A stretch of DNA of 64,000 nucleotides, taken from Angiostrongylus vasorum (lineage: Eukaryota; Nematoda; Chromadorea; Rhabditida; Metastrongylidae). The first letter of the stretch is position 1, and each line of letters begins with the position of its first letter. The position numbers were made by a program, and so were the translations under genes. The notes under the pieces were generated by a model. The model worked only from the letters and a program-made list of their open reading frames with translations, was not told the origin of the DNA and did no database searches. Shown piece after piece: positions 23,618 through 50,059 of the stretch. The stretch spans positions 1,054,001 through 1,118,000 of the forward strand of contig JADANN010000434.1 of the NCBI GenBank assembly GCA_018806985.1. The letters run 5' to 3'.

Positions 23618-23697
23618 TGGCTGGTGTATAGACATTTAATATCACAACGTTTAAAAATTTGAACTTTGTTGTTTAATGGGATCTTGTTATTGGAAGG

Positions 23698-23750
23698 AAT
23701 AAAGCCTGGAATTTATTTAATATCTAATGTATTCATTCTGGATCCTCCAG
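23698..23750 (+). promoter_or_regulatory. mrpl-41 poly(A) signal and djr-1 trans-splice acceptor, copy 1
   Basis: AATAAA at 23698-23703 lies 80 bp after the mrpl-41 stop. A GGATCCTCCAG acceptor ends at 23750, 14 bases before the djr-1 start. This order, 3' end signal then acceptor then next start, within 150 bp is what a nematode operon junction looks like. Trans-splicing itself is inferred. Confidence 0.55.
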
Positions 23751-23764
23751 TGTGTGTCTGAATA

Positions 23765-24911
23765 ATGTCTGCACTTTTGATACTTGCTGATGGCGCTGAA
23801 GAAATGGAGGCTGTCATAACGGCTGACGTGTTGAGAAGAGGAGGAGTTGATGTATGGTTTTATTCATCAATTCATCTTTGTAAATTAAATGTCGAAAATC
23901 TGAGTTCATGGGTTTCATGATGTTACAGGTTACTGTGGCTGGGCTGGCTGGATCTAATCCAGTAAAATGTTCGCGAAAATCTGTAATCACACCTGACTGT
24001 GCATTGGATGATGTGCTTGCGAAGAAATTTGACATTGTTATCCTTCCTGGAGGACAACCGGGAAGCAATACATTAGCAGCGGTGGGCGCTGTTCTTACTA
24101 GTACGTATGTAATGGTTCCTTTTATATCTTCAGGTAGTACGATTTCTAGAGTAGTGTTGTTGGGCAAGTTCTAAAGGCGCACCATGATGCTGGCAAGTAT
24201 GTAGCAGCAATTTGTGCCGCACCAATTGCATTGAAATCACATGGGATTCCGACATCTCTGATTACAAGTCATCCATCCGTACGCAAACAACTTGAGGAGG
24301 GAGGTAAGTAGATTTTACTGGTGTAAACGACTAATACTGGGCGCTTGTGGCGCAGTGGTCGGAGGCGCCTTGCGATACATATGGCATCGATCCCAGCGCC
24401 TGTGGCTCACCAAGCTTTCCATCACTCCGGGCGGGCAAATTGGTACCCAGACTTGTCTGGGAGGATAGCAGCACTAGCTCGATACATCGGTAGACCACCG
24501 CGAGTCATTGTAAAGACCAGATATGCATTCGATCACCTCCAGCGATTCTTAATGAAGTTGAATACACGGCGCATCCTTCAGGGATTGATCAACGCCAAGA
24601 ACCTTTTACTTAACATTGCAATACGAGTCATGTCTGCTACTGCTATTACTTGACTTCTGCTAGTATTGCAACATGATAAGCTAAGTCTTCTATGTTTTAT
24701 GACTCTGTCAGATGATTTTTCTTCTTGTGTACTATTCTATTCTGGTGTTTTAGGGTATAAGTACAGCGAAAATCGAGTAGTAGTCGCAGATCGTATAGTG
24801 ACCAGTCGTGGACCTGGTACAGCGTTCGAGTTCGCTCTAAAACTCGTTGAACTTCTAGTTGGAGTTGAGAAATCCAAAGAATTAGTGGCGCCTATGTTGC
24901 TAAAGTTATAG
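23765..24911 (+). CDS. DJ-1/PARK7 family protein, copy 1
   Basis: DJ-1 superfamily protein (glyoxalase/deglycase and oxidative-stress roles described for the family), 183 residues. Exons: 23765-23851, 23929-24081, 24150-24303, 24754-24911. GAEEME near residues 10-15 carries the conserved Glu. The reactive Cys is in AAICAAP at about residue 102, equivalent to human Cys106. VILPGG and [12 protein letters not shown] near the end are family motifs. Intron 3 contains a SINE. Orthologous to djr-1.1 by neighbours and sequence. All key residues are present and the frame is open. Confidence 0.92.
24338..24610 (+). repeat. tRNA-like SINE in djr-1 intron 3, copy 1
   Basis: GCGCTTGTGGCGCAGTGGTC head. 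The tail is damaged (CAAGAACCTTTTAC). Confidence 0.85.
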
Positions 24912-25744
24912 AGTGTTGCGAATATTGTTACTAAGTAGATTATCCACAATATATATCAGTGCTTGTGATTTGTATATGCTCCATAATTTTAAGACTTCGT
25001 GATTCTGAATGTTTACAACGTAGTAGAATTCTGATGTTATTCTAACTATCACTTGACTATCAGTCAAAGCGGATGACATTACTGTTTGCGAAACGAAAGT
25101 GTCAGGAGCGTTATGTAAAAGTTTTTTTTGCTATGTTTCGGCAATACTCGTACACCGAACGTACATTTGCGTGGCGATGGTACTTGTAATGCGCTGCATA
25201 AAATATGGGAATGGTCAGGACTACTGGACCGACCACATAATTTTTGTTAGCCATCTGTATATGGACAATTTATCCCTCTATTGCAAGGCGAAAACGCAAA
25301 AAAAAAAGTGCTCAGAGTATTGGTGACAGTGAGCAAGTACTAGGGCACAACGGGCAGTGCTTATAGGTACCAATTCATTTCCTGCTTCGATGGATTATTT
25401 TGCAGCGCAATGTTTTTTGCTGTGCTGTTTCTGTTTGTATTTTACCATGAGCTCACGCTGATATTTTATCGAACTTTGTGTAAGAAAAGCTATATTTGAC
25501 ACGATTATTTTTTAAAATATCTTCCAGGGATGTTTACTCGTAGACCCACAGAGAGTGTTCGTGGTAAGAAGCGTGCTGTTAAAGACGTATCGTCGCTGGC
25601 GAGAGTACCACATTTGAGAGGGTGTACTAAAATATTTCTGTGGACAAATACGAACACAAATTTATTGGTTTCGTCACGATTTATTGCTTATTAGATACAT
25701 AGCCCAAAGAGTGTAAGCTTTTAACACTCTTCATCTGTGGTTCT
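24912..25744. other. Spacer after djr-1, copy 1, possible short exon
   Basis: No repeat is recognised. TTCCAG ending at 25527 followed by GGATG and a strong GTAAGAAG donor at 25564 would bound a 36-bp exon at 25528-25563. I cannot link it to any protein. Confidence 0.3.
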
Positions 25745-27260
25745 CGTAAAGAGCTATAACCATCGGATAGGTGTTCTTCGTGCTGTACGTTTGACAATCA
25801 GAGGAATCCGATCGCAAATGGCTTTTTGTCCACAGGTTGTCATTCAGATGCACTATGTTTCCAGCCCACTTGGTTTTCGATATTTTGCCATGAAGGACGA
25901 CGGAAGGTCGTCACTGATTTTTGGTCGATAACGTAGGTCGGAACTTCGGATCTCTCTCTCACCTCGGTAATGCGGGATACTGCTAGCATCGTCTTTTAGA
26001 CCGCACGTTCGACAAGGCTGAGTGGTCTCTGGTCCTGCTTACATAACGACCAGGTTCCCGACACATACGTTAAGGCAGGAAGAATCGTGGAGTTGCAGAG
26101 ATGGACACGCACTTGGTTACACTTTGTTCTTGTCACTACATCCTCGATGCTCTTGGAGATCCCACAAGTTGATCGCTTTCTCCAGATCATTGCTGGAGCT
26201 AAGTCGTTCGTCATGTTGACTTCTCGACGTAGACTGGCATAGCTGGAAAACTTGAAGGTATTCATTCCATAGAGCGTGAATGAAAACCAATCCGTGCTTG
26301 TTAAATATTGTTTTTTGCTTAATTTAGTTGAAAACTAACGTTTTCACTAGCATTTTTAAACTTGGCTGGCATTCGTTCCCCCTGGCCAATGGTTAGCGTT
26401 GTAATAACGATGTTATCAGTAAAGGTAAGGTGGTGTTATTGCCGACCGTTGATGTTCACTACCACGTTGTCCCATTCCAGTGTTCGCATGATGTTCTTCA
26501 GGTTACAAGTTAATAATTTCAGTGAGCCTTTTGTACTCTCGTGACACTTCAATGAGTATTGTTATCGTTGTGGATATGGTTTATCGTACTGAATCGTTTT
26601 CGAAACCCTGCTTGCTCACATGGCTGTCCTTCGTCCGGTGCTCTGCCAATCCTGTTTAGGATGACTCGCGTGAAAAAATTTGTGGGTGAAATACAGCAAG
26701 CAGATTGCGCGGTAGTTGCTGATATCGTGTAGATCACCCTCCTTGAACAATAACACGGTCTCGCTGGTCTTCCATTGAGAAAGGACCTCGCATTCAGAGA
26801 GGTAACGAATGAAGAGCCGAGTCAGTGTGTTTACGAGGGCTGTTGGAATTCTCTTCAGGTGTTTGGGTTTTACCCTGTCCCGACATGGTGCTGTTCGATT
26901 TTTCACCGACGAAATGGCATGTCAGATTTCAGTAGGGAGAGCCGGGGGTACAACACATCCATCCTCCTTTAGTTCATATGAGGGAAGAAGGACGTGGCTA
27001 TTGAAAGATCCGAGTAGTAGCATGTCTACGTAAACACGGAAGGTATGTCTCAAGTCGGCCTCAGTAGGAAGGTATCCACCTTTGGATCCAGTTGCGCCCA
27101 TGGAAAGGTCAAGGTATCTTTGGTCCTATCCATCGTCTGGGGACGCGCCATGTGACCTCGCGATAGGCTGGAGATCACGCTGTGAAGGAGGTCCCTGGAG
27201 ACTTTCTTTGTACTTTCAGCAATTTGTTTCCTAGCTCTCATCTCACTCATTTGCCTTCCA
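25745..27260 (-). mobile_element. Decayed RTE-type reverse transcriptase fragment, copy 1
   Basis: On the - strand, reverse-transcriptase blocks occur in order from right to left: linker (about 27250-26990), KNRTAPCRDRVKPKHLKRIP with LFKEGDLHDISNYRAICLL (26616-26906), later palm and thumb pieces, and ALTYVSGTW (25996-26265). Near 25745 is the end with GKISKTKWAGNIVHLND. Multiple shifts make it inactive. Confidence 0.8.
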
Positions 27261-28116
27261 GCTGACTAAGAAGGCCTGTGTAAAGTCCTTGAATCCTTGT
27301 ACTTGCACAATTGGGAAACTAATGGTTGACATGCACTTGGTAGTTTCTTCTCTCTTATTCTTTCTTTCTTTCGTATTATCACGTGAATCAAGGATTTATT
27401 TAAACATAGAATACCATGGTAGGTTATTAAAGATCTAAAGGATCAATTATTCACATGTCCTACATTAGCGATACATGCCTACTCGAATACTTGGACGCTG
27501 CCCGTGTCTTCGCCACTAGGACGAACCCAGCAGATTTTCCAATCCTTTCTTCCTCGCACAATCGTCATCTATCGTACGAAAATTTACAAAGTACAAATTA
27601 ATTCATAAATTGAAGAAAACGAATACTTTATAGTTACTGGAATGGTAAGGTAGTAGTTTCGCTTTCTTGGTGGTCGGGAGTTTCTCGCACAAGTCTCACT
27701 AATTCTCAAATTAAGAGGAAAACAAGCGCTATTATACTGCTGTAGATATCAACAGCAGTTTTAACAAACATTTTTTAGTCTATCCAAAAAATAGCCAAAA
27801 AATCTAAGTAGCATTGAGATCAGTTATTGAAAAAATAACTATTTGAAGCACTGTCACTCATTCTAATATTCCTCTTTGAGGCATATTTATTCTCTACTCT
27901 AACACTTATGCAACAGCGCATAATTCTTTTTGCCGCGCTCATTATGAGACTCAGAGACGTCATGCCGGCTACTGAGTTCATTAAGAAATGATCACTATAG
28001 GTGTCGCTTAAGTGTCTCCCATGAAATGCACCTCAGCATTATGTTGGTCTGTTGGTCTGGTGTTTTCGAAACAAAAAAGAGAAAAGAGAACGACGTAACG
28101 ACGTGGAAGTGTATTA
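27261..28116. other. Spacer between RTE fragment and lim-9 end, copy 1
   Basis: Contains a weak family B end fragment at about 27485-27560 (ATACTTGGACGCTGCCCG). Nothing else is recognised. Confidence 0.35.
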
Positions 28117-29083
28117 TTTATTGGATTTTAACAACGTATCCAATTATTGAACGCCGCTAGATGGTGACACTGACGAACAGCTTCGCAGTGTAGAAGATTC
28201 TGCAATCTGTGCAGAACTTATTGTGTACACAGTAGAACACAATGAATCTATATACAAAATGTCGTTGCGCTGAAGAGAGAAGAACAGAAGAGAAGAGAAA
28301 TGACAAAGCGAAAAAAAAGTAGGACGCTCTGGTGATGCGGACGACAGTTCGGTACCGTCCGATATCGTAGGCGTATAGATGGAGCTGTGCAAGCGCATAG
28401 CAGAACTATGGGAGTTTGTATGTAGTGAAATGTTGATAGGAAAGCGATAAAATTCCACTGGGTAACTGACTAGACATTTCGTAGTGGTGGCGAGAGATAA
28501 GACGAAATGCATTTTAACGGCCGAGAGAAGTGTTGGAAGAGAACATCACGTTGACTTATGTAGAACGGACTTAGCTTAGGAGCTGTGCAGATTGAAACTA
28601 TAGAATATGTTGACGTTGTGAGGGTAAGAGGGCAGCGATATAGTGAGGCAAACAGCAGAATATTGGAAGATAGGATTCATAGAAGTAGGTAGACGGATCA
28701 ATCATGACGACGACCAGGTCGATGAAGACGAGGAAGAAGAGGAAGAACGTATGAACGGATAAGTTAAAGATGAGAATGCCATCCATGCAGATTACACGTC
28801 GATTAGAAGAGGTTACGAGTTGGCAGCCATCAATCGTGCCTTTGCACATTCTGGACACAAAATATCGGTGCCGTCGGTGATGAAGCCCTGTAATGATGTG
28901 GTTTTCTACCGAATAGTAAACCTATGAGAAAACAAAAAAAATGAAGAAAAATAAAAATAGGAGATAAGCATATGACCGTTTCTCTCACCTTCCCTACCAG
29001 TGATGTTGTGCATTGAGCACACATGAAACAGTCATTATGCCAGTGTCTGTCCTCAAACGAGATGAATTTCGCACCACCAATAC
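28117..29083 (-). pseudogene. lim-9/FHL-like gene, truncated 3' end, copy 1
   Basis: The last two coding exons of a four-and-a-half-LIM type gene on the - strand: 28989-29083 and 28813-28887, stop at 28813-28815. The 3' untranslated region runs to a poly(A) signal at 28117-28122 (AATAAA on the - strand). The exons encode the end of the last LIM domain (HWHNDCFMCAQC, then CPECAKARLMAANS), identical to the complete gene at 56492. The 101-bp intron 28888-28988 has GT-AG ends on the - strand. All upstream exons are absent because the duplication breakpoint lies in the next intron, so this is an orphan 3' end. Confidence 0.85.
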
Positions 29084-29198
29084 CTGGGAAAATGTTAATT
29101 TAAGAAATAATATCTAGAACATTTTCCGATCCTGTTTAGAGAACCTCATCTAGGTGAGATTTCTAGATTTCACATTAGATAGTATTAGCACACTGAAA

Positions 29199-29492
29199 GG
29201 CGCTCATGTGGCGCAGTGGTCGGAGGCGCCCTGCAACATACGCGTGGAATCGATCCCCGCGCCAATGGTTCACCAAGCCTTCCATCCCTCTGGAGTCGGC
29301 AAATTGGTACCAGACTTGTCTGAGAAGATAGCAGCACTGGCTCGATGCATCGTCGGTAGGCCACCGCGAGTCATTGTAAAGGCCAGATATGCATTCAATC
29401 ACCTCAGAACGGTGCATAATGAAGTCGAATGCGTGGCGCATCCCTAAGGGATTGGTCAACTCCGAGGGCTTCATCCTTATCCTTTTTTTTTC
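29199..29492 (+). repeat. Junction SINE between duplication copies 1 and 2
   Basis: A full head, GCGCTCATGTGGCGCAGTGG, then a body almost identical to the SINE at 2617 onward. Left flank is lim-9 intron and right flank is the sequence after the first SINE. This is the arrangement expected if recombination between two SINEs made the duplication. Confidence 0.9.
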
Positions 29493-29911
29493 ACCTCGAG
29501 TAAGGTTTCCAGATGTCAAGTGGTGGAACAACGAAGCTCGGATGTGTATGCAGTAAATGCAAGTCTTCCAGTCTATTTATTCAGCCGTTTCTTTGTCGAT
29601 GTGGAGATGAGCACAACGACTTTTAGTCAGAGGTGGATTTGTATGCATCTTTAGGCGTATCAGTGTCAGCATTACCATCTACACAAATGGCACACTACAC
29701 GGCATATGTAGCAGTTCCCTGCCCCCGCATTCTCTGGAACAACGCATCTGTTCGAGTTCCACTTCTAACAAACTTTTGCAAACCTATACTCTCTAACACT
29801 TACACTATATACTTATTTTCATTATTCAGGGTCAAGTTAGGCTTTAGCTGGCCTGTCGCTAGGAGAAGGTTCTGGAAACACACAGCTAAAACGTTTAAGA
29901 AACAAAGTGAA

Positions 29912-30684
29912 AATTTGTATGACAACGCACGCATGCTATTATGGGAACTTTCAATCGACGATTTGATGGTAACAGATGTTCCACGGAACAGAGCAGTTGG
30001 CAACGTTGATGTCTTCATGGGCACGTCTTAGGCGAAAATGATTGGTTCCTATAGACATAACGACCCGAATCAAACATTATCTATAGGATGTGGGCCTATA
30101 CCGTGTTTGGCATTCTTTGCAGAGTACGCTGCATCGTTCTATATGCGCTTGGAGAAGTTCTACAGAGAGAACCATATCTTCTATAAGCTCGTCATTTGCG
30201 ACTTGGAGGCTAAGAATGAAAGCATCTAAAGGACTTCACACTTGTGGTGCACGAAATGGGACGCAACGAATGAGGTGACAGGCTGTCGGAGTTCACCATA
30301 ATGATGTTGTACTGGTGCACAAATGGTTCATAACGAATCCTCAGTGTTGAACGTAGGAGTCTGCAATGGAGAGTACCGTAACGAAGTAAACCGAATAGTA
30401 AATCGAAGGGTTTTTTCCTAGCATATGTCGCTGTTTTACTAAATTTTACGAGTGATCAGACCATGGCCTTATTCGTGGAAGATTTTTTCAAGTGTAAATA
30501 GGAGAGAAAGCCACAAAGGGTCAAACGTGCAAACTTCTCAAAACCGTCATCAGTACAATCTCAACTACTTTGGGTTTTGGGAATATGTAGTTATCGATAA
30601 TATCGATGCGGAATATGGTCGGCACACTTCACAACAGTAATACGATTGCACATAGCTCGAAAACAGTATGTGCTTGAAACTCGA
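29912..30684 (+). mobile_element. RTE-type endonuclease fragment, copy 2
   Basis: Duplicate of the fragment at 3320-4092 with only small indels. The same broken endonuclease pieces are present. Confidence 0.7.
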
Positions 30685-32206
30685 GTGAATGGATCACCAC
30701 AGAGCTTCATGGGCCGAAAGCAATTACATACTTACGTACTGGTATGCCAAGCTCTCTGAAAAGGGATCAAAATTTTATGAAAATAGTAGCAGCAGTAGAG
30801 TATGAAGCTGCGAAAGATAGAGATAGGATCCGTAACCGTTGCTGGAACATCGTTTTAGAAGACCAAGACAATCGTCTCTTACTTGGATACTTGGACGGTC
30901 CGTCTTCACGAGCTGTGCGGACCCCAGCACATATGGCATTCGTTCCTTTCTCTCGCAATCGTAGTCCATGGTGGTAGTCTTTTGTTCGAGCATGGTAGCG
31001 CTTGCGAGTCTCGTACCGTGACCTGTAAAACAATTGCAGCTGCGGGTACAGCTAATTAATTTTGTTAACGAACACGTCCGCCCAACGTGTAGGTGGTCGT
31101 CCTGGGGGGACGTTTGCATTCTCTTGGAGTCCACTCTACTGTTCTTTTCGTCCATCAGTCGTCCGTTCTTCTCATTATGTGACCGGCCCATCTATGAATC
31201 GTCTCAAATGAAAAAAAATCACTGTATCAATATGGAGAGTGGAGACGACTTCTACTTCTACTCCAACATCTTCAACCTGCTATATCCACATGCTTCCATA
31301 CGGTAGTATATGTCGTCTCATCAGTTCTATCATTAGAAGTTGTACGTATTTTTTTAAGACGCATTCGATTTACTCGGCGATTAACGTGAGGATGAGGACC
31401 CGGTGGGGTTGAAGGCCTGATGAGCACTGAATGCTGGATCGCTGCAACGACCACGTGCCCATTGCGGCGCACTTCTTACCACTGCGCTGCAGCCGTAGGC
31501 GACACTAACTATGACAGATGTTTTCCAAACCTCATTTCTCCCTGAAATGTCGTGCGCCGCACAGATAATGCCTACCTCTTCCTTTAAAACAATGGATTTC
31601 GTTCTATTCGCTTATCAAAGTGTTTTCAATCTCCTGGCTTGTTTATCATAGAGTGGGAAGTCAGAAGCCTTCGTAGCACTTCGATCGAGTTCAACCCGTT
31701 GCATTTAGTCTTTGATCTGGCTAGTCCATACCTCGCTTCGGTCCGTTGATACCAAATTGTTGAACAAAACGCTTTTTTCGCAAGGATTGGTTTTCCTGCT
31801 TGTTTCGCTATATTCGAGGATTTAAGGAATCATATTTACAAGCTGCTTGTTGACTAGCCAATTCATCACTTCACAGTAAAGTCTTGGAGCTAATTCCGTT
31901 CGTATGTTGAAACAAATTCGCAAATATCCACTCTATCTAGTCGTTCGTCCCATAAGTGAGATGTGTTTATCTTCTTAGAGTTCATATGAGATGATGGATT
32001 ATGATTAGCTTCAGATTAGATAATCAGCTTCAAGTATAGAGGTGGCTCGCATACGGTTGGAGATCCTTTGTCCTTCGATTATTTCAGTCTGACAATTTTT
32101 TACGTTGATCCAAAAACTGCTCAAGGGTTTTGTGCTCTGGCCTGTTTTGTCTCTTTGCTTGGATCGTGACTTCAACCTGAGATTCTTGACCATTATGATT
32201 TTCCAG
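30685..32206. other. Intergenic repeat fragments, copy 2
   Basis: Collinear with 4093-5610, with the same family B end fragment (about 30880-30940) and SINE head fragment (about 31400-31500). No gene is recognised. Confidence 0.4.
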
Positions 32207-32482
32207 AGTGCATGTAGCGCATTGCTCGGGGACGCCGTGCAGTATATATAGGATCGATCCCCGCGCCCTAGGCCCACCAAGCCCTTAATCCCTCCAGAGT
32301 AGGCAAATTGATACCAGAGTTGTCTGGGAGCATGGTAGCACTGGCGCGATACATCGGTAGGCTAGCGCGAGTCATTGCAAAGGCCAGATATACATCCAGT
32401 CATCTCCAACGGTGCTTATTGAGCTCAAATACGTGACGCATCCTTCAGAGATCGATCAGCGCCGAGAGCTTTATCCTTTTTT
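32207..32482 (+). repeat. tRNA-like SINE, degenerate, copy 2
   Basis: Duplicate of 5611-5886. Confidence 0.75.
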
Positions 32483-32729
32483 AAATGATTTTCCGTGCTT
32501 TCTATACCAAAGCTATGGCATAACTTCCGGCTCGCTTTTCTTTCCTCATCTTGTGCCTTTGAGCTGCCACTTTTGTTGCGAAGCACGCTGTCGAGTTCTC
32601 TTCCTTGACAACGGAGTATTAAATCTGCTTCACATTGATGTGGTCACCATCAGAATTGTGTCATTCGAAGTTTCAAGTGATTGTCTTGGATTTTCTATCA
32701 TCAACAGGAGCTGAAATATGTACATATGG

Positions 32730-33047
32730 ATATACTTGATACTTGAATATCCCGTCGTCACAGGTTGTGCGAGAGCCGAAGCATAATCTCCATTTTTCGG
32801 AGATTTGCTGGCTAAGCCATTGTGGTTTCGTGGAATGTCGAGCTCAGCCCGGGCAAAGTTTGCCCCAGGTCTTCACCACAAGGGCTGCGAGTGCCTGTGG
32901 TGGTGAAGATCTGGGGCAGACTTTGGCCAGGCTGACCTCGGGATTCCATGGAACCATAGTGGCTTAACCAGAAAATCTCCGAAAAATGGAGATTATACTG
33001 GGGGCCCACACAACCAATGAGTACGGGCCATTCAAGTATCAAGTACC
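32730..33047. repeat. Foldback version of family B, copy 2
   Basis: Duplicate of 6136-6450, with both arms retained. Confidence 0.85.
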
Positions 33048-33411
33048 AAGTATGTATACATACATATGTACATATACATATGTATAAACATGTTAATATT
33101 CTATATAGCTGACTTCTATGTCTTGTGTGGATCGCTTTTCCTTATGTCGCATATGTTTACATGACTTTGTTGAGTCGTTGACTGGTGGAGTTGTCACTTT
33201 CACGTTTCCCGTTTTTTTCTATCATCTCCATGTCACCTTTCATGTCTAAAATCGCTTCGTATTAACCTGTCTATGAAGAATCACCGCCTTTATTACAATT
33301 GTATAATGGTAGTGAATGGAAAGGAATGTGCTTAGAAATACGTACCTAGATACAATCATAGTTTATTACATTTATATTTTTTAGGTCAGTTTTCTTCAAC
33401 TCAGGTTAAAA

Positions 33412-36124
33412 ATGCCTCGAACAAGGCGGAAGGGACGAGCCGCAAAGGCTGCTCGTCGAGGTCGAGTTGGAGGTGCTCAGGCAGTTCCAAGGCGCCATAG
33501 AAGGAAGAGGGTGTGTTTTTTGTTTCTGTTTTCGAGTTCTATCACGAGTTATTTATCCATGTAAGCCTATTGTTTTTCAGAAAGATGAAGATGCCTTAGA
33601 TGTGCAAGAAAGAGCCATCAAACAGATTAGAACGGCTTGTGCTGCTAAAACGGCTGAATATGAGAAGGCTAGACAGCCACACTCGTTCGTTATCCATCGA
33701 GGTAGTGTAGGAAAGTATGTGAAATCGTTAGTGAGGGACATTCGGCAGATTATGGATCCGTTTACTGCAAGGCACTTGAAGGCTAGTCTTATTTTGAGAA
33801 GTGGTGCATTTCTCTGCCCTTTATTCTCTTGTTTTCTGTTTTTTAAATAGTTGATACTCACTGTCCTCCCAACGGTTTACCCCCCTCATCGTGGCTAGGA
33901 CCTGTTCACTGGTGTCGGGTGGCGATGTACAGCGGGTACCCCCCCACCGAGGTTTCCCAAGTTGAGATGGAGTCCGGCGTTTCCGTTAGGAAGCCCAACT
34001 GAGAGTAAAATACTATGATCCTCCGCCGTCCTGCTATCAAAGTAGTCGCGTGGTGGCAAATCTCCTGATCCACAAGTGCGACGGCTGCTTGTTGTGGTGA
34101 CGACCTTGGGCAGACTTTGGTTAGGCTGACCTCGGGACTCCAGGGAAACACAGTAGCTAAACCAGCAAAACTTCGGAAAAGTGGAGATTTAACTGAGGTC
34201 AGCACAACCAGTAAAGACGAGGTATCCATGAATTCATGTAAGGTATTCACTACATTTGTAGTAATGAAGGCAGCATTTTCAACGTGAATTCTAAATTGTT
34301 CCAGATTTTAAAGCGTAATAATATCAAGGATTTCGTTGTACATGGAGGTGTACTTGGCGTGACCAACATGATAGTGTTAACAGCTAGCGAAATTTCGGTA
34401 CAGTTGCGAATGATGCGGTTCAACCAAGGACCCACGCTTACGTTCCGCGGTAAAGAGTTAACTGGACCAATTTTAAATCAGAGAATTTGGTTGCGAATTA
34501 TTTAACGTAGCATTTTCATCCTAAATGATTTTAGTGCACGAGTATTCGCTTGCTCGGCACGTATTATCAACCCAGAAACGATCGTCAGTACATCAGAAGC
34601 TCTTCGAGAAGCCACCTCTTATCATTATAAATGGGTTTAATCAAGTAAGATCAGTGCTTCTTAGTCTATTATTTTCCAGGCATAGCTTCTTAGTGGTGAC
34701 TGTTTCTAAGTTTCAGACTGGGAAGAAACATCTTCTTCTGGTCGAGACGTTCATACAGAACATGTTTCCATCAATAAATATTGACGCGGTAAATTTTATT
34801 GTTATTGTAATACATGGCTACCCGAGGGTGAGCGTAGCGCAGTGGTCGGAGGTGCCCTGCAATACACATGGAATCGATCCGCGCGCCCCAGACCCACCAA
34901 GCCCTTCATCACTCTGGAGTCGAGAAGTTGGTACCAGACTTGTCTGGGAGGATAGAAGCACTGGCTCGATATGTCGGCAGGCCATCGCGAGTCATTACAT
35001 TGATCAAATGTGCATTTAATCACCTTTAACGATGCTCAATGAAATCGAATGCGTGGTGCGTCCCAGAGGGATTGATCAACGCCGAGGGCTTTATCCTTTA
35101 TCCTTTTATAGCTATTCGTGAATATGTATATTCCTGACCGGTTTTCGGAGTATAGATGAGGGACTTTTTCATTCTCCATTCCTAAAGCCACTTCTGTTTC
35201 AGCTTGATCTCCGTTCTGTGAAACGGTGTTTGATGGTGAACTATTGGGAAGAGGATGACTCCATTGATATTCGTCACTAGTAAGATAACTATGCCTTTTT
35301 TTATAACAATTTTTTTGGCTGTTAGAGTTCAACACTTCAACACTTGGACATTTCAGTATTTTGTCATGAGTATGTGAACTATAGTATTGAGTGGTTTAAA
35401 TTTTAGTGCCATTCGTGTTGTCGCCTCAGGAATAAATAAGTCAGTACGAAAATTGATAATGGCTGGGAAATCTTCGAGTAAGGAGCTGCCCGATCTTTCT
35501 AAGTACAAGGATATATCAGACTATTTGTTGAACCCTGGACATCTCAGCGATAGTGAGTATGAAGGCGAAGAGCAGGAAGTTATTCTACCACAAAGTCTGA
35601 GCGCGAAAACTGGGACGGTGAAAGGAGAGAAGAGTCATATACGGTTGATGGAAATAGGACCGCGATTAAAGCTTGAGCTACTGAAAGTTGAGGACGGCAT
35701 TGATGAAGGAGAAGTGTTGTACAACAAGAATGTTCAAAAAACCGGACCAGAACTAGTGGCACTTAAGAAGGAGGCTCCTAAGAAAAAAAAGTTAAAAAAG
35801 CGAATGGTACAAGAAAACGAACGTCGCATTATTTGTCGTCTCGAAAAAGTAAAGGAGGCGAAAAACCGAGAGGAACAGGAGTTAAAAGCTTACAAGGAAA
35901 AAGCCGCTCGAAAGCAGGCGGCTGCCATTGGACAAACAGAGGATATCGAGAATAGTAAGGAGAAGGACCGAGAAATAGCGCTGCTTCGGGAGAAGGAAGT
36001 GAGCAGTTTTAATGGAAGTGACGAAGTCCGAAGGCGCCCTACTTTAGCGCAGCGAAAGCGGCGAATGAATATCCAGGACGAAAGGAACACAAAAATCAAA
36101 AGATTAAGAGAACAAAAGACGTAA
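33412..36124 (+). CDS. PPAN / Peter Pan (SSF1) Brix-domain protein, copy 2, intact, three introns missing
   Basis: Same gene as 6814, but the full frame of 473 residues is open. Exons: 33412-33510, 33581-33781 (fusion of exons 2 and 3), 34305-34449, 34535-34644, 34717-34788, 35203-35279, 35407-36124 (fusion of exons 8, 9 and 10). The fused exons equal the spliced form of copy 1 to the base. Five of the eight splice-proven introns remaining in copy 1 terms are kept, plus the GC-AG intron 33782-34304. Brix domain covers about residues 66-265; the rest is a charged, lysine-rich tail. Five A near 36091 keep the frame open to the TAA at 36122. The protein acts in the nucleolus in 60S subunit assembly. 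Confidence 0.92.
33782..34304 (+). other. GC-AG intron of PPAN copy 2
   Basis: Same GCTAGT donor as copy 1, which makes a random sequencing error less likely. A family B repeat lies inside. Confidence 0.75.
33864..34230 (+). repeat. Family B repeat in the PPAN GC-AG intron, copy 2
   Basis: Duplicate of 7330-7694 with homopolymer length changes. Confidence 0.75.
34825..35109 (+). repeat. tRNA-like SINE in PPAN intron, copy 2
   Basis: Duplicate of 8289-8572. Confidence 0.85.
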
Positions 36125-36410
36125 TATGTTTTTTGAGGTTTTTGGTTGTTTTCTATGGTTGTTAAGCTGTATTGTTAATTTGTTATCTTGCGGATGTTTT
36201 CTTGTTTGTTCCCTTAAACTTGTTTTGAATTGTTATATCCCATTATTTTTCGCTGAGTTTCCTCATAGACAGCTTGTTTCTAGTAAAGTTCTTTTTCGTG
36301 AAGATTTCAAACATTTTCATACACCACGTTGGAGGCGTAATATTTCTTCGTGTTGCTATTGTTGTATAACCTTCTTTCCGAAGTTGATTAGGTATGTATG
36401 GTCTTGTGAA

Positions 36411-36795
36411 ACCCTCCCAACGGTTTACCGCCTCATTGTGGCTGAGATGTTCCTGGGGTGTTGAGGTGGGATGTACGGCGCGGATTCGTCCTCGCGGCAG
36501 GGTCTCCGAAACTGAGACAGAGAGTCCCGCTTTTGCGTCAGGAAGCCAAGCTAAGAGTAAGCCAATACCAGGATCCATCACCGTCCTGCTATCAAATTAG
36601 TGGCATTGTGGCAAATCTTGCTCTAGTGCACAAGTGCGGCAGCCGCCTATGGTGGTGACGACCTGGGGTAGACTGTGGCCTAACTGACCTCGGGACTCCA
36701 GGGAACCACAATGACTAAACCAGCAAAACTCCGAAAAAGTGTTGTTTTGCGGGGGGTACGCACAATCAGTGAGAACGGGCTATTCAAGTATCCAT
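36411..36795 (+). repeat. Family B repeat between PPAN and misc-1, copy 2
   Basis: Duplicate of 10078-10462. Confidence 0.8.
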
Positions 36796-37221
36796 GTATG
36801 TCTTGTGGAATGAGAATGTAGAGGGACACTAAGAGGGACAATCTAAAAGCATTGTCATTTCTGGAGTCACAGTGCTAATGCTTACGTTTCCAATGCGCAT
36901 TTTCAAGTCAGGAACTGTGGAAAGAGAAAAAGACCAACTAATTTTAAGTTACTGCAATGTACATACTTGTGATTACTTAGGGAAGTTCCGTATAAGTAAA
37001 GGAGTCCAATGTTACTGTTGACAATATGCCATCTTCCTTTAGTATTTCTTTAAACATGGCAGGTGTACCGACCATCTACGCTTCTTGTCGTGGTATTCTT
37101 GGTACTGACAGATGTTAAGATGGACAGTTTCTCTTGCTTGGTTTACCGTCTTCGAATTTCGAGAAGTTGAAGAGAAAAGCGAATGAGGAACAAGAGATAG
37201 TTATCCACTGTATGTGCTATA

Positions 37222-37502
37222 GGGCGCTTGTGGCGCAGTGGTCGGAGACGCCCTGCAACAACCACGTGGTATCGATCCCTGCTCCCATGGTTCAGCAAGC
37301 CTTCCACGCCTCTGGGGTCGGCAAATTGGTACCAGACTTGTTTAGGAGGATAGCAGCAGTGGCTCGATACATCGGTATGCCACCGCGAGTCATTGAAAAG
37401 GCCAGATATGCATTCGATCACCTTCAACGATTCTTAATCAAGTCGAATGCATGGCGCATCCCTCAGGGATTGATCAACGCCGAGAGCTATATTTATCCTT
37501 TA
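37222..37502 (+). repeat. tRNA-like SINE between PPAN and misc-1, copy 2
   Basis: Duplicate of 10890-11170. Confidence 0.85.
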
Positions 37503-37790
37503 TGTGCTCTGTTTGGTTGTGTATAGGATAGGTTGTCTACGAACATTTTGTTATTCAGTATGAGTTGGTTTAGGATTAAGCAGCTTAAGGAATATGAGTC
37601 TTAGAAACTGCCCTATCGTATCTTTTGAGTGATAGTGACAGATTGGCTGAAGTAAAAGCGTCGTTGAAAGATGATTTATGAGAATAGTTTCTCGTTGAGT
37701 TTTTGTTGTTACGTTACTATTAACTCGTTAATAACATCGATTTTCTAGCCTATACGAGTGTGTTTGCGAGAGCTTTCGTTTTCGATAACT

Positions 37791-39134
37791 ATGTCAGGCG
37801 AGAAGACAATACCAAATGGTGTTAAATTTCTGTTTGGAGGATTGTCAGGGTAAGTGGTTGTGGTTGAGTTCCTAAGTATAGTGGGGATTCATCCCCCCTA
37901 CCAGCAGGGTCTCCCAAGCTGAGAGGGAGTTCGGCGTTTCCATCAGGAAGCCCATCTAAGCGTAAACCAATACCAAGTTTCACCACCGTCCTGCTGTCAA
38001 ACTAGTCGGATGGTGGAAAATTTACCTCTGATCTACAGGGACCTTGGGCATACTTTGTCTAGGCTGACCTTGGAACCCCAGGGAAACACGCTATGCTACA
38101 GCTATAGCTATAGCTATGCTAAACCAGCAGGACTTCGAAACAGCAGAAATTATGCTGGAGCCCGCACAACCAGTGAAGACGGACCATCCAAGCATCCAAG
38201 TATTTTGTCAGTACATATTTGTTCAAGATGAAACAGTATTGTTCCTGCTCCTTATCTGAAAGCGCAAATTGATCGTTGAATTTTCTTTAGCATGTGTGCC
38301 ACATTATTTGTGCAACCTCTTGATCTAGTGAAAAATAGGATGCAGTTATCTGGAACCACAGGTTAGTTCCATGCCTTCGTACAGCTTTCTTTTCTTCTTT
38401 ACTTCTTGCGCCGTATTTTTCAATAATATTCTCTAGAGCAGAGATATGAATACTATTATGTGTAGATTCACTGGCAAGATCCAAACTTCACTGAAGTACC
38501 AGATTTTTTTAAACAAATTTGCAGTTCTGACGTCTTTTGCATACTTTTTTGATAACTAATGTACATGAGAGTCCGGAGATTTAATTATAAAGGAGAGATC
38601 GCAACATCAATCTAAGAGTTATAATTCCTGTGGAATGTTTTTTTCATTTTCAATTAGTACATATTATATGTTATACAGCAACGAAATTTTAACACGTGTA
38701 TTCGAAGACACCTAATTTTATTTGGAAGAAGATCTGTGGGACGACGTCCTATTTGTTTCACGCATGCTGCGAATCGTATGTGATTCGTACCGACCAGTCT
38801 TCTACGCCTGTCCATCCTTTTACCCAGACTCGTTAAGTTCGTGACAGACATATCTGGGCGTATAAAAACAATGATGTGATGCATTATGGGCCTTGCAAGT
38901 CGTTGTCTAAAGGAAATATGTGTTCATTCTCCACAACGATGCTTAATGGAATCGAATGCATAATGTATCAATTATATATGGGTGAACTACAAACGCTTTG
39001 TCAATTTATCATTTACCTAGCTGTTATGTGTAATGTGAAGAAGAACTCGTCCACCATCTTGCCTCGGTGCGAGCAGCCATTAGTATACACTACGCGATAC
39101 ATATGTATACATATATATATATATATATATATAC

Positions 39135-39202
<68 letters not shown>

Positions 39203-42200
39203 TATTTCAATCTTTTAAACTAGATCTTTTTGTATCCATCTATCCCATGCCATGAATATGAATCGTTGCAACGATTGCGAAGGAAAGAACAGTCATTTAC
39301 TGGTGGACAGTTGAATTTCATGTCTAGAATCACCTCAACTGAGAACAAATTTAACATCATCACATAAGGTGAACAAGAGGGAACCGAAGACACTGAAGGA
39401 AATAGTGAACAACTTATGCTCTGGGACGCCTACAGCAGAGTGGTTAGAGATGCACTACAATACACATTGGTCGACCACTGGTCCGATCTCGTTCAACGGG
39501 TTCAATAAGCCTTTCATCTCTTCTGGGTCAGCTAACTGATGTCAAGCTTGTCTGGCAAGGTAGCATCGCTGACTCTGTGTATTGGTAACTCACCGCAAGT
39601 CTTTTTTATAGGCCCCATACGTATTCAGTAACCGCTAACAATGTGTGGTGACGTCGAATGCACAGCGCATCGCTCACGGATTGATCAGCACAGAGAGCTT
39701 TAACCTTTTTACTTTATCCCGTGGTAGGTTAATCTATAGGTTGACGGTGATGATGTTGTATTCGCCTAAGAGAAGTCAAACGTAACTTCAAATGGTGATG
39801 GTCGTGTGTTTTATGGGTAAATTTGGTGAGAAGTGACTTTTATGCGTATCACTTGGAATTTCCGACGTCTGGCAGTGACATTCTTTTCTGAGAAGTTGGA
39901 TTTCCGTTCAAAAAGCCCAGCCGCAGAGAGCAGTCCCACCAGACTAATCCCGTTTTGATTTTTGCGATATCACAAATATCACTAACCGTTCTGCTGATTG
40001 TCGAGCGACTCGAGCGGGTGTTAGTAAATCTTCCATTTCTCCCTCTTTCCTCCAAGAATGGCCCAGTGAGTTGTGCTCGCTGTAGGGACTCGTTGAGCAT
40101 CATATTCTTCTAGGGTTTCCGAGAGAAATTCTGACTATCGGGTTGGTTGTATTCTTGCGATGAATGTGACATCTCGAGGAATCCATTCGCTAACGGCTGT
40201 TGTCTATTCGATGTGAATCATAGCGGCCCATTTTATCTTCGACAAGTGGGCATGTAGAACGGCGTCTTTGATTTTTGATCGATGACATAGCTCGAAGCTC
40301 CGAGTCCATCCCTTCACTTGCGTGATTCAGGATAGTCCTAGTATCATGCTTTCGACTGCGCGTTCAATAACGCTGAGTGATCTTTCATCCTGCTCACACA
40401 ACGACCAGGTTTCTGACGCATACGTTAAGGCAGAAAGTTGCGTTGAGTCGAAAAAGATGGGCACGGAATCGGATGTTCTTTGTTCTCTTCACTACATCTT
40501 CGATTTTTTTGTAAGCTCCCCAAACCGCTGGTTTCCTTCTGTTCAACTCTGGAACTAAGTCGTTCATCATGTTGGTTTCGCGATCTGGATGCACCTAACT
40601 GGAGCATTGGGAGATTCATTCCGTTGAGCGTGAATGGGGCATACGCAACCACTCTGTTCCTTTACTCGTGAACATCGTTTTCCTGAGATTTAGTCGTAGA
40701 CCAATCTGTCCACAATTGTCATGAAAGTGGGCTCGCATTCGTTCTGCCTGGCAAGTGTTTGGTCTATAAGAACGATGTCACCGTAAAGCTGAAATGATGC
40801 AATTGCCGACTATCGATTTTCACTCCCATGTTGTCCCAATTCCAGCGAATGGGATGACGTTCTCGAAGATGGCGATAAAAACTTTTGACGAGATGGTATA
40901 GCATGTTAATATCGTTATACAGCGGTGGTATTCCTGTTGTGAATTTTTCTATAGCTCATGAAGAATCGTTATATACTGATTAGCGACTGAATTCTTTCCG
41001 ATACCATGCTTGCCTATATGGCTGTCTGTCGTCCAGTGTTCTGTCAATTCTGTTTAGGATGACTCGAGTGAAAAGTTTGTAGACGACAGACAGCAAGCAA
41101 ACTATGCGATAGTTGCCGATGTCTTGGAGGTCACCCTAGCTGAGCAGTAACACAGTCTTTGTGGTCCTCCATTGAATGGGAACGTTAAATTCTGACAAGT
41201 AACTTGTGAAGAGTCGGGCTAGTGTGTTTTTTAAGGACTGGCGGAAAGTCCTTCAGGTGTTCAGATCTTATTCTGCCTGAACATAGTGTAGTTCGATTTT
41301 TAGCGACGAAATAGCGTATCGAATTAGGGAGCGGAGAACCGACATATCCATCCTCGTTTTTTGAAGAGGTCCGAGTAGTACTGTGCATGATTTTCTTCGT
41401 TACCTTTTTTGGAAGCTTTAACTGTTCCGTCTGAGCATCGGAGTGAAATCATCTTGGTTATGTAATCGGCGAAGCTTCGGTGGGTTTTGCTGACTCGTTT
41501 CTCATCGTCTACAGCTTCGAACATAATTGGTGCTCCTCTCTCTTTATAATTTTCTTTTATCACCTGTCTGCGTGGATTAGCAAGTTCGGGCGGGAGTTTG
41601 TGGTTGCCTGTGGCTCATGCGATTCTACGTTGGCGTATCAGCTTGAGTGTTTCTGGAGACATTTGTCTCCTCGGTGTCTTTCGAACTCTCAGCTTTCATA
41701 GCGTTAACATGAAGATGTTGAATGAGCCGATCGTATTCTTTGTCGATGTTGTCGACAACAGCATTTTCCCAACATCCGACAGTTGAATTGAATTAGTTCT
41801 AGTTTGTGGTGGTTCTGCGACTTCGGTTTTTGAATTTAGCTTCTTTTTTCTCCTTTCCGGGAGAAATAGAATCTTTCACGAAGGAGACGATGGTCTGATG
41901 CCGTGCAGAATTATGGGACATCAGCGACATCGGTTAGGCAAAACCTTCTATTTACTATAATGTGGTCTATTTCGTTATGGTACTCTCCACTGAGAGACTC
42001 CCACGTTCAGCGTGGAGAGTGGGGGCTTCTAGAACTGCGAGTCACCATGAGTGGTCTTAGTTTTACTAACTATTCCTCAAATAGTTACGATTTTCTGTAT
42101 TGTCATATGTTTTCTTTATTAACTGTTTAGTTTTGACTATCCTACATCTACTCTTGCAATTTGTTCATACTGTTTCTTAGCGACCATCTCATGCACCTGC

Positions 42201-45200
42201 CTCGCAGCTGGATGGAAGTGAATTCTATAGCATCTTTTTAACAACTGTTCTTCTCCGTCCGACAGTTCGGGGATTGTAGAAACAGATGCCAGTCGCAGAC
42301 ATTCTTCAGCATCTGCCTTCCCAATCTGCTTTCTGTACATTCTTGCTGCAACGCTATCCTATGTGTTCGGTATAAGCTGTTTTATAGCTTTCATTAACAT
42401 TCTGTGCAAGCAGCTGTGTCAAATTTAACTAGCTGAGAAACATTCTAGAATCTCCCTCTGAGCATTATTTCTAGTTCCTTCAGTCAAACTCTGCCCAGTA
42501 CAGAGGAAATATAAAGAGCATTATTAGTCAACCAGTTAGTGTTTCGCTCAATTTTCGCCCAGTTTCGCTTAGCTAGTTCACTCAACTGGATACAGTCACC
42601 GTTCTGGATTTCGTCAGATTGTGCTCTGTGGTAATGTCAAAAAGTCCCGCATAGCAGATTCATGCAAAGCTGCGCATTCTCCTTCGAGCTGGTGATTATT
42701 CTGTGCCGAAGACTGACTCGAAGATATGCATTCTACTAACCAACTAACACCTTAGTCGTCATGATGAACTCAAAGAGCCACTCAGCCTGCTCGTACCATA
42801 CTAATCCGTGGGTCCCAATGTGACGTTCTTAAGACGTTCTTCTGTGTCCAGTTTTAGTTTTAAAATTTCCACTGATGCCTTTAAAGAATGTATGGTCTTC
42901 TCTGTAGAACTTCTCCAATCTATATAGAATGCCTTGGCTTCGTCTTCGTCATAGGTTGATGTCGATGCGTAGACGACGAATATTTTCAAAGCCTTTACTG
43001 GTCCACATCTCTTCAAATGTAAACGTCCGATTCGAGTTGTTAGTTGTCCTCATGAATCGATGTTATGACCAAACTCGTGTGGACGAAAACGCTGACACCG
43101 CCTATTCCTCTATTGTCGCCTGTTTTAAGAAACAGTTCTTCGGTGTCAAAGACGGCGTTGAATGGGTGGCGTCTTCTCCTCTCGGCTAGTCCAATGATGT
43201 CGTACCTTATCCTTGTTTTGTCTTCATGATCGTCTTCTACCGAGGACTCAGATGCAAGTGTGCGTGCATTGTAGGTACAGATCGTCACCTTTTTCCTTTG
43301 CGAATTAGGTGGGCTAGAATGGCACTGAGGTTCTAGCAGCCCTTCCGTGCTCGTTCTACCCAATGCTGCCGTATCCTGGGCCATTTCGAAGTCAACGGAA
43401 TAATGCCCATTTATTTGACTATGCTGTGTTTAGCACTTAATAGCCACGTGTAGCTTGTTCAGCTCTGAATACGGGGGGCTGGGTGTGCTCACGAATAGCT
43501 TGTTAGTCTCACCCAAAGTAGATGAGGAGCTTATTTGTTAGAGGTGACCCTATCTGCCCTACATATATTTCCCAGTCAGTTGATTACAGGCTTTTGTCCG
43601 ATCTGACTCGTTAAACACAATCCGCATATGCACAAGTGCATTAATATATCACACGGAAGGTACGCATTAAATCGGCGCAGCAGAAACACGGAGTCCATCC
43701 TTTGGGTTCACGTGCACCTTAGGAAAGCAAAAGGTCAAACTTTTCGCCCGCGATTAAGTCGTTATCTGTTACCTGGGGCGCGCTATGTTGCCTCGAGGCT
43801 TACCGGCATGAGGTCTCTCTAGGTGGGAGATTCGTGGATATATGTATGTACGTATAAATGTATATGTGTATATAGAATATGTCTGTACAATCTATGCATA
43901 TATTGATGTTTGAGAGAAAGACAAATCACCAGGGTTGATGTGATGGATAGGACGTGAGCCCCGGTAAGGGAAGTCACGGGAAGCCCAGCTCAGGTTCCGA
44001 TTTTTGCACATATTCCAGTATCGTTGTTGTTATATATGTTTATTCCTAGATGATTAAGCTGACACGGGTTTGTTATAAATACGTACATACACATATGTAC
44101 ATATACAATGTTTGCACGATATATATGTATATGTGGATGTATATACATATTTATAGTTTTCACTCTTCTGACTTTGTATTAGATGTTTTTGCTTCGTATT
44201 AACATTAATCCATCTTCAATCTTTCCATAATTTAGGAAAACGAGAGTACCGTTCAAGTGTGCACGCTCTGACATCGATTATTCGCAATGAAGGTGTCATG
44301 GCTGTCTACAACGGGCTCAGTGCTGGATTGCTACGTCAAGCGACGTACACGACTACAAGATTGGGGACGTACACATTCTTATTTGAGCGCTTTCGAAAAG
44401 GGGATTCCGCACCATCTTTCGGTATGAAGGTTTCATTGGGAATGGCTGCTGGAGCAGCTGGCTCAGTCGTTGGAAATCCGGCGGAATTAGCACTTATCCG
44501 AATGACAAGTAAGTTTAGAGAAAAACTTATTATTACAACAGTAATGAAAATTCTTGATCATCATGGTCTCTCTAACATATCGTCGACAATGTGATGCATA
44601 TATGGCTCTTACGTTGCTGCGCATTTGACTTTTTTTCATTGCCTTTTGTACCGTGAATCGTTTACAGTGTGTTTTAAATTGGATAGACACCGCGTCTGCT
44701 AATATAACGCAGGCGTGTTCGCACAGATACATATTGTATTCTGGAAGTTAATTCGGCCAAAAGTGTACAATGAAATGAGCAGGAAGTACAGAGGGAGGTG
44801 GTTAGGTGTAGGAGTCGCACCCATCAAATGGACCTCGTGTCTACTCCTGGAGATAGCAGGTTACAGTCCGTGAGTATTTTCAACCTCCATGCAAGGTTTT
44901 GGCAACGTAGACATGAGTTCCTATCTCCAAACTGAAGTAGTTAGGCCTCATTTCCCAAAAGATCCCACAATACGTGTATCAGCGTTTGGTAGAACGAGTA
45001 TGAAGAGCCTGCTAAAGCTTTAGACTGCTTAATGTGGAAAGCCTCAGTTGATGTCTCGATGCTGTCTTGAGAATTTGACGGTGCATATTAAGATGAATAA
45101 GTAAAGGACTTAAAATTTCATTGCCTACAATTTGAATGCCTTTTATGTTCCGGGGAAGTGTCCCTCAGGAAACATGTGACACTTAGAAGTTCGCGGCGTT

Positions 45201-47192
45201 GGCATCCACGTCGAAACGAATTTGGCCAAGAAGATCGATACCTTTGAATAACTAAGAACTCGGATTGAATGCTTGCGGTTGAGAAGATGTGAGCAGATGT
45301 CGGCTTTGACAATCTTCGTCGTTTACGCTGTTTCATCAGTCAAAGACATTGTAGAACAAATATTGTGTTAATAGCATGGTCTTGTCAAGAAAATGTAAGC
45401 TTACATACATAGTAAATGGATTGATCGAGCACATTGAATTAACGAACGACCCTATTTCTCCAGGAGGACAAACTGGTACAAGACATGTACGGAGGGGTTA
45501 AAAACTGATCTGATACATCAATAGGCTATCGCATCTCATTGTATAGGCCATATTTGCATTGAATAATGTCAAGGAAGCTCAATGGAGTCTAATGCATAGT
45601 GCATCATAAGGGATTCATCAACGCTGAAAGCTTTATCCTTTGCCCATTTCAAGAGAGAAAAACGAGAATCTTTCATTTGTTACAGGGAAATACCAATGCG
45701 TTAAAGTAAGACCATAGAAAGCGTGTGATTTGAGAGAGAAAATATCTTGGTGGCACAAATGTGGTCGTCATTTTGTTAAATCATTACAGTTCTCTTTGTT
45801 TTCATGTGTTTTTCAATAGTTTGATTTTATTATTATTCTGGGTGAACTAACAATGTGACAATTTAGTCCCCTTTTTGTGCAATGCACTTCTGTTTAGGTG
45901 ATGGTCGTCTTCCTCCAGAACAGCGACGAAATTATAAGAACGTGTTCGACGCACTTATTCGAGTTGTGAAAGAGGAAGGTGCTTTAACCTTGTGGAGGGG
46001 CTGTGGACCAACAGTGATGCGTGGTGTGGTTGTGAATGCATCGCAATTGTCAACATACTCGCAGTCGAAGCAAGCGTTACTAGGAACGGGATATGTTAAA
46101 GACGGTGAGTTTCTACGCGTTTCTTTTCTAAGTGCTTAGATATCATTCCAAAGTCTTTTTATACTGCTTGGTATCCTACTAGATAATTTTAGGTATTTTC
46201 TGTCACTTTTTGGCTTCCATGGTGTCTGGATTGGCCACTACGATCGCATCAATGCCTGTCGATATTGCGAAAACTAGGTAAAGATTTTTCCATCATAACT
46301 GTTTTGCTAAATTTCCACTCTTTTGACTATCGTTAATAAGAAGGATAAAGCTCTCAGCGTTGATCAATCCCCGAGGGATGAGCCATGAATTCAACTTCAA
46401 TAGACATCCTCTGGAGGTGATTGAATGCATATCTGGCCTTTACAATGACTCGCGGTGCCCTACTGATGTACCGAGCCGGAGCTGCTATCCTCCTAGACAA
46501 GTCTGGTACGAATTTGCCAACCCCAGAAGGATGGAAGGCTTGGTGGGCCAGAGGCGCCGGGGTCGATCTCATATCTATTGCAGTATACCTCTTACCGCTG
46601 CGCCGCACGCGCCCGATGATTCTCGTTAATTTTGAACTGGCTGTTGGTGCGAGTTCAGAGAATTGCATGGGTTTTCTTGATTAGAAGTATGATTAGTTTT
46701 CTGTTGAATTCGATACTGTGTTAGTTTCATTATTCTATTGTCTCATTCTCACTATCTGTGGTATTTTTTAATAACATCCTGTTGAGTATTGGTTTAATTT
46801 AATGTAATGCACTATGCGGGAAGACTAGTTACGTTTAAAAATCCATTCTTAAGGATTCAATCGATGAAGGTGATCGATGGTAAGCCAGAGTACAGAAACG
46901 CTTTAGATGTATGGATGAAGGTAAACACTGTTGTAACTGTGTTCTCGCATTATTTTCTGATTTCTTTCAATGTTTCTTTTACTTATGGTTTCCTACTTGT
47001 TGCTTCTTTAAGTATCTCACTAAATCATTGAAGGTAATAAGAAACGAGGGTGTGTTTGCTTTGTGGAAAGGATTTACACCGTACTACATGCGTATTGGGC
47101 CACATACCGTCATCACTTTCATCTTTCTCGAGCAAATGAATGCCGCCTATTACGAACTGGTCTTGGGAGTCAAAGCAAAGGCCGGGCTATAG
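37791..47192 (+). CDS. Mitochondrial 2-oxoglutarate/malate carrier (SLC25A11 type), copy 2, intact
   Basis: Exons: 37791-37849, 38291-38361, 44236-44508, 45898-46104, 46193-46277, 46854-46920, 47034-47192. Together they make 306 residues with no shift. Three carrier repeats carry PLDLVK, PAELALIRM and PVDIAK signatures. NRMQLSG, RQATYTTTRLGTY, GDGRLP-type and KGFTPYYMRIGPHT blocks are typical of the oxoglutarate carrier. All introns are retained, including the 5.9-kb third intron with the RTE remnant. The likely ortholog is misc-1. The start was chosen because it gives the family-length amino end; an acceptor-like TTTTCTAG lies about 40 bases upstream. Confidence 0.93.
37880..38202 (+). repeat. 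Family B repeat in misc-1 intron 1, copy 2
   Basis: Duplicate of 11550-11873. Confidence 0.75.
39110..39196. repeat. AT dinucleotide microsatellite, copy 2
   Basis: Shorter before the ACG interruption than in copy 1, consistent with slippage after duplication, allelic difference or sequencing noise. Confidence 0.95.
39418..39719 (+). repeat. tRNA-like SINE, degenerate, copy 2
   Basis: Duplicate of 13094-13396. Confidence 0.65.
40015..43390 (-). mobile_element. Decayed RTE-type retrotransposon in misc-1 intron 3, copy 2
   Basis: Duplicate of 13690-17050. Here the endonuclease start is joined to an amino end beginning near 43384, because one T fewer in a homopolymer opens the frame. Confidence 0.85.
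42025..42812 (-). other. Unidentified segment inserted in the RTE remnant, copy 2
   Basis: Duplicate of 15700-16480. One T fewer than copy 1 opens a 67-residue - strand frame (42137-42340) with EECLRLASVSTIPELSDGEE. Family unknown. Confidence 0.5.
45446..45645 (+). repeat. Partial tRNA-like SINE, copy 2
   Basis: Duplicate of 19151-19350. Confidence 0.6.
46340..46622 (-). repeat. tRNA-like SINE in misc-1 intron 5, copy 2, - strand
   Basis: Duplicate of 20045-20327. Confidence 0.85.
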
Positions 47193-47682
47193 ACGGGCCG
47201 AATTGTCTCATGTCCCGTTATCTTAGGAGTATTAGTAGTCTAGTCAGGAAATATAGTTTTGTATTGCTCCACTTTTTAATTTGTAGCAGCTGTCTGTGAA
47301 GTTTGATGTGGTTTGTTCACTGAGTGACTTTTTTCTAATGCGTGAAGTTGATGTGAAATGCTTCTATCGTGGGTTACCTGTAAGGGCATGAGTTATAATG
47401 CGGTATCCTTTAGTATTATATGTTCTGTTGTTGTATGGACTTTTATTTGATACTGGTATTGATTATGTTCCTTTGTCTAGAAATCTCATAAGCCGCCAGT
47501 ACTTCACTCTTCTTTGAAGGTTTGTCTTGTTGAAGTGGTATGAAGATTTCTGTATAGTTCCATTGTGTTGATTACAAGAGTGGTACTTCCCAGGTCGCAT
47601 ATCCCGTTATCTTCGTGTTGTCTGAGGTTCCTTATCCAAAATCATTCTAGGTGTTCTTCATGTGTTAATCTCAACTCCTTCG

Positions 47683-50045: not shown

Positions 50046-50059
50046 TGTGTGTCTGAATA

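Follow-up and report, generated by a model that had tools for sequence, protein, structure and literature searches.

For the genome project on Nippostrongylus brasiliensis, Eccles et al. (2018, PMC5765664) state that the structural reassembly by Pilon was disabled during correction with RNA-seq reads, "in case it collapsed introns", and from this statement the collapse of introns can be regarded as a known hazard of such a correction. Similarly to that case, the genome analyzed here is a strongylid assembly with homopolymer indels, and what was feared there, namely that introns of transcribed genes would be removed exactly, is a fault of the kind described below; unlike there, where the step in question was switched off, the joins are present in the sequence. 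The genome is not that of N. brasiliensis, as its PPAN protein is 69.1% identical to P0014 (327/473). For Angiostrongylus cantonensis, an assembly corrected with Illumina reads has been described (PMC6871775), and in a proteogenomic study of A. costaricensis Pilon was run with RNA-seq data to call variants on an older draft, not on the present assembly (PMC9694666). The second group of described systems comprises the models for true intron loss. In the reverse-transcriptase (cDNA) model, as presented by Zhu and Niu (2013, PMC3652778), introns are excised exactly, adjacent introns are lost together, and losses lie at the 3' side. The locus described here resembles this outline in the exact excision and in that PPAN introns 8 and 9, as well as the two missing introns of a LIM gene, are adjacent and 3'-located; it differs from it in that isolated introns away from the 3' end are missing as well and in that three genes are affected within the age of near-identical copies. 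The model of genomic deletion by end-joining, from the same paper, is matched by short repeats at the ends of the lost introns, and is not matched by the occurrence of exact events only, in several genes at once.

The tandem array and its two PPAN genes

The window, that is, the whole stretch of 64 kb that was analyzed, is part of a contig of 2.35 Mb (C434) in an assembly of 279.9 Mb in 468 sequences. Within the window, tandem copies of a unit approximately 26.5 kb long are present:

2598..29196, tandem unit 1, with PPAN, misc-1, mrpl-41, djr-1 and the truncated 3' end of a LIM gene
29197..55495, tandem unit 2
55496..55719, first 224 bases of a third unit, ending at a gap
55720..55729, assembly gap of 10 N
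55730..56568, 839 bp with the same sequence as 54349-55187, the terminal part of another unit, continuing into the right flank

Two junctions of a unit end with a unit start and one junction of a unit end with the flank were observed, and the array therefore likely has three or more units, of which the last falls for the most part into the 10-N gap. The two complete units are nearly identical. In their alignment (2598-29196 against 29197-55719), 60 indels of one or two bases were counted, the majority of them at homopolymers, and, leaving the edges aside, about seven isolated substitutions, of which PPAN has none; the small indels resemble what consensus error in long reads would be expected to leave. 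Indels of more than 2 bp measure 7, 64, 83, 118, 4 and 30 bp, in addition to the unit end. At about position 18860 of the window, a stretch of 30 bp that occurs once in unit 2 is tandemly duplicated in unit 1.

Each of the two units carries a PPAN gene on the plus strand:

6814..9832, plus strand, PPAN copy 1 (lpd-6-like, Brix domain), 10 exons, nine of nine introns present
7075..7138, plus strand, PPAN intron 2, 64 bp, GT-AG, lacking in copy 2
9338..9420, plus strand, PPAN intron 8, 83 bp, GT-AG, lacking in copy 2
9543..9660, plus strand, PPAN intron 9, 118 bp, GT-AG, lacking in copy 2
33412..36124, plus strand, PPAN copy 2, open frame of 473 amino acids with stop codon

A preliminary description of this DNA had reported that introns 2, 8 and 9 are absent from copy 2 with base-perfect joins, and the unit alignment, in which they appear as the indels of 64, 83 and 118 bp, bears this out: the exons of copy 2 are joined exactly at 33672/33673, 35872/35873 and 35994/35995. 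The introns of copy 1 are, in order, 70, 64, 521, 85, 72, 414, 128, 83 and 118 bp long, and six of them, those of 70, 521 (GC-AG), 85, 72, 414 and 128 bp in copy 1, are kept by both genes, the introns of 521 and 128 bp measuring 523 and 127 bp in copy 2. Thus, as had also been reported, PPAN introns of a size similar to the missing ones remain, and the same holds for the introns of misc-1, mrpl-41 and djr-1, in which indels of more than 2 bp spare exons and splice sites, the exon limits of these three genes being partly approximate.

The further claim that the coding sequence is untouched needs a correction. Copy 2 encodes an uninterrupted protein of 473 amino acids, but the two coding sequences are not identical throughout: an A-run near 9757 in the last exon of copy 1 is longer by one A, resulting in 487 residues with an altered end; as it stands, this frame closes at about 9832. 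The end of the copy 2 protein resembles that of a relative, P0007 (..RLRE..), and that of copy 1 does not. The copy 2 protein contains a Brix domain (Pfam, E=9.7e-35), and this domain, together with PPAN orthologs among the best matches listed, places it in the PPAN/SSF1 (Brix) family. Among the best 120 of 212 matches, the closest named relative is Angiostrongylus cantonensis, with P0015 identical at 361/384 aligned residues (94.0%), which suggests a worm in or near this genus.

Two proteins of A. cantonensis retain traces of introns. P0015 ends in ..RAKYVHLMLW, a read-through into the start of intron 9 that matches the translation of this intron in copy 1 (..REKYVPLILW); P0026 has the residues LGVLH where intron 8 begins, the beginning of that intron apparently being read through. 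From these remnants, introns 8 and 9 predate the tandem pair and are thus old, and copy 2 is the one that has changed and represents the derived state, in sequence at least. A gain of introns by copy 1 was also considered and was rejected, as it would involve three unrelated GT-AG sequences, two of which are traced in the A. cantonensis proteins. The two PPAN protein models of this species, P0015 and P0026, are identical at 216/228 aligned positions and have residues in common that are not found in the PPAN of the present genome; the pair perhaps goes back to a separate duplication event, or else a gene model is faulty.

Copy-specific joins in LIM and actin genes

At the right end of the array, beside the gap, lies an FHL/LIM gene on the minus strand, with a LIM domain in its end. 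Of its last exons, designated A, B and C, the two units carry B and C, and all three are found right of the gap:

28888..28988, minus strand, LIM intron between exons B and C, 101 bp, GT-AG, unit 1
55186-55287, minus strand, the same intron in unit 2, 102 bp; absent at 56566/56567 right of the gap
29084..29196, minus strand, 3' piece of the LIM intron between exons A and B, 113 bp, unit 1; 55383-55495 in unit 2
56495..56780, minus strand, fused last LIM exon (A, B and C) to the right of the gap, with an approximate upper limit

The position 56566/56567, which has the appearance of the right end of the array, is no breakpoint. Right of the gap, exon A is further joined to exon B at 56661/56662, the intron between them being absent; the 113-bp piece of this intron in the units, cut by the unit junction, ends in cccag, immediately before exon B. 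The two introns missing here are the 3'-most ones of the gene, and longer interruptions upstream remain, as judged by reading the open frames. The LIM copies in units 1 and 2 are truncated and have kept intron sequence, and it is the longer copy, presumably the expressed one, that is without both introns.

A search for actin genes revealed a similar situation on another contig. Contig C99 harbors, in the region 2498800-2519000, two inverted actin genes with the same match pattern, in which the gaps measure 113/114, 21/21, 50/50 and 521/522 bp; codons 1-169, however, fall into one match of 507 bp in one gene versus 563 bp in the other. All 618 of 618 aligned bases are identical. The differences consist of a single T in a T-run and of a 56-bp GT-AG intron near codon 65 that is missing, to the base, from one actin gene, which keeps its other gaps. 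The break at codon 65 is present in actin copies on C99 (plus), C401 (minus), C108, C187, C446, C322 and C460; at C401:1576063-1577357 and C463:991126-991587, which may be genes or pieces, the match runs through.

Taken together, exact copy-specific absence of introns was found in three of seven near-identical gene sets (PPAN, LIM and the C99 actins), the seven being a non-random choice of multi-exon genes or gene ends, four of them located in the tandem unit and a fifth at its end, with the actin sets coming from a search aimed at close paralogs. The unaffected sets are misc-1, mrpl-41, djr-1 and an actin-like set on C322/C460, the last being judged by match coordinates only and considered close on the grounds of equal match identities and spacing. 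Three introns are missing in PPAN, two in the LIM gene and one in the actin gene. All five missing introns of which both ends are known are of the GT-AG type, are 56-118 bp in length and have left joins exact to the base; of the sixth, the LIM intron between exons A and B, the 3' end is known, and its full length may exceed that of the others. Apart from homopolymer differences of a single base, the compared stretches of PPAN, LIM and actin contain no inexact deletion.

Probable RNA-derived correction and rival explanations

Based on these sequence comparisons, we infer that the absence of the three introns from PPAN copy 2 is very probably an artefact of the assembly, brought about by RNA-derived sequence in its correction, and that the worm's DNA most likely still contains all three. 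Spliced RNA reads or contigs would have been treated as genomic during assembly or polishing, and the consensus would have been rewritten to the spliced form at some expressed genes. A tandem array or an inverted pair would offer near-identical targets, of which the rewriting might strike one copy and spare its twin, with an outcome that would mimic exact intron loss in a young duplicate. The preliminary description had considered real, cDNA-mediated loss in a very young duplicate and had named polishing with RNA reads as the main alternative. The former lacks support, as two unrelated genes, the LIM gene and, on another contig, the C99 actin, have joins that are likewise exact and confined to one copy; the latter has now become the best explanation. 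Real loss at a rate of three in seven sets among such young copies is implausible, which favors RNA-derived sequence in the correction. The homopolymer differences between the units point weakly in the same direction. They affect 1/31 coding runs and 55/345 others, a borderline difference (length-stratified permutation, P=0.049) that depends on approximate exon limits. A correction of transcribed sequence would leave fewer differences in coding runs; if the indels are real, the same pattern could also result from selection against frameshifts. In line with an artefact is, in addition, the last PPAN exon, which adjoins the two joined introns and in which copy 2, not copy 1, ends like P0007.

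Several observations count against an artefact. The effect is a patchy one: introns of 70, 72, 85 and 127 bp remain in PPAN copy 2, and introns or short gaps are likewise kept by misc-1, mrpl-41, djr-1, the affected actin gene (its other gaps), an EF1A gene on contig C187 (589854-591564; gaps of 127, 49 and 101 bp) and three extracellular-SOD-like genes (gaps of 111, 117 and 131 bp). A blanket correction with RNA would be expected to strike such genes, and the retained gaps therefore speak against it. As the EF1A gene on C187 and the SOD-like genes illustrate, short introns of strongly expressed genes are not generally missing, although such a general absence is no strict requirement if the correction was patchy. 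Furthermore, the LIM intron between exons A and B was removed even though it is possibly longer than the other lost introns, and the absence of the 3'-most introns, as in PPAN (8 and 9) and LIM, is also predicted by true cDNA-mediated loss. In this latter scenario, a reverse transcript of spliced PPAN mRNA would have recombined with copy 2, with conversion of a 3' tract that spans introns 8 and 9 and, separately, of a tract around intron 2; LIM and actin would have been converted likewise. Exact excision, adjacency and the 3' position fit the reverse-transcriptase model as outlined in PMC3652778; as introns 8 and 9 have long been present in the genus, the change would be a loss rather than a gain; and open reading frames resembling reverse transcriptase occur in the 200 kb of neighboring DNA that were sampled, as judged from their translations. 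However, independent events would be needed in three genes, each event being younger than the nearly identical copies, and three of seven sets would be far too frequent for a genome that is still full of short introns. In addition, two of the missing introns, PPAN intron 2 and that of the actin gene, are not 3'-located and have no other loss next to them. No donor PPAN copy elsewhere was seen among the 40 of 16,493 first-look candidates that were scored, most of them repeats, a sample in which a donor could be missed. We therefore consider real cDNA-mediated loss very unlikely, and similarly slight is the chance that cDNA-templated conversion recurs in this nematode lineage and removes short introns exactly, fast enough for single members of several near-identical copies to be caught.

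Two further explanations were weighed. A DNA library contaminated with cDNA, or transcripts used in gap closing or scaffolding, might have acted in place of deliberate polishing with RNA; this is a variant of the best explanation, otherwise indistinguishable here, to which we assign a separate and decidedly small probability of its own. The same exact and patchy joins would result, and the LIM joins are 0.8-0.9 kb away from a contig end at the 10-N gap, but PPAN copy 2 is located about 20 kb away from this gap. Deletion at the genomic level, by end-joining on short repeats at the intron ends (AG|G..AG|G), appears extremely improbable. The repeats by which the joins could slide are slightly longer in the lost PPAN and LIM introns (3, 3, 1 and 3 bases; n=4) than in the retained short PPAN introns (1, 1, 0 and 0 bases); however, such repeats are an element of the splice-site consensus, the introns compared are few, no inexact deletion accompanies the exact ones in the compared stretches, and it is improbable that six exact events would have occurred independently in three genes.

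If RNA-derived sequence did enter the assembly, gene models would be wrong at such places, and near-identical copies would provide a simple internal test for this kind of fault; a public genome into which spliced sequence has leaked would be unusable, in its gene structures, for studies of intron loss. If, in contrast, the introns have really been lost, the loss would be exceptionally fast and clean, and, should repeated cDNA-templated conversion be true, intron loss might be watched within a population.

Spliced leader sequences and further paralogs

The spliced leader SL1 was read as a possible mark of correction with RNA, in the form of a leader stuck to gene starts. Exact occurrences number 266 in the genome, and eight places (L014-L021) were sampled: seven of the eight share the sequence that follows (atattgctctg..), with no GT after the leader, and in the eighth a GT follows. 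The places headed by SL1 perhaps constitute a dispersed repeat family. At gathering thresholds, Rfam yielded nothing in six of the eight SL1 loci or in the window.

Breaks are missing in some further genes. In the EF1A gene on C420 (1074139-1075922), codons 46-463 are uninterrupted, unlike in the paralog on C187 with its three short gaps, and two SOD-like genes are without a break that is seemingly present in others. These cases could reflect intron collapse or a true difference between paralogs and were left out of the count of affected sets. Also left out of the seven gene sets, as its gene content was not established, was a stretch of 10 kb at the start of two contigs (C117:1-10000 and C163:1-10000; L022 and L023), which is the same in both at 99.8% identity, without indels of more than 2 bases, and represents redundant assembly sequence. 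Finally, at locus L033 a single open frame of 553 codons (5452-7110, plus strand) reads, judging by its translation, like a transposase-derived gene.
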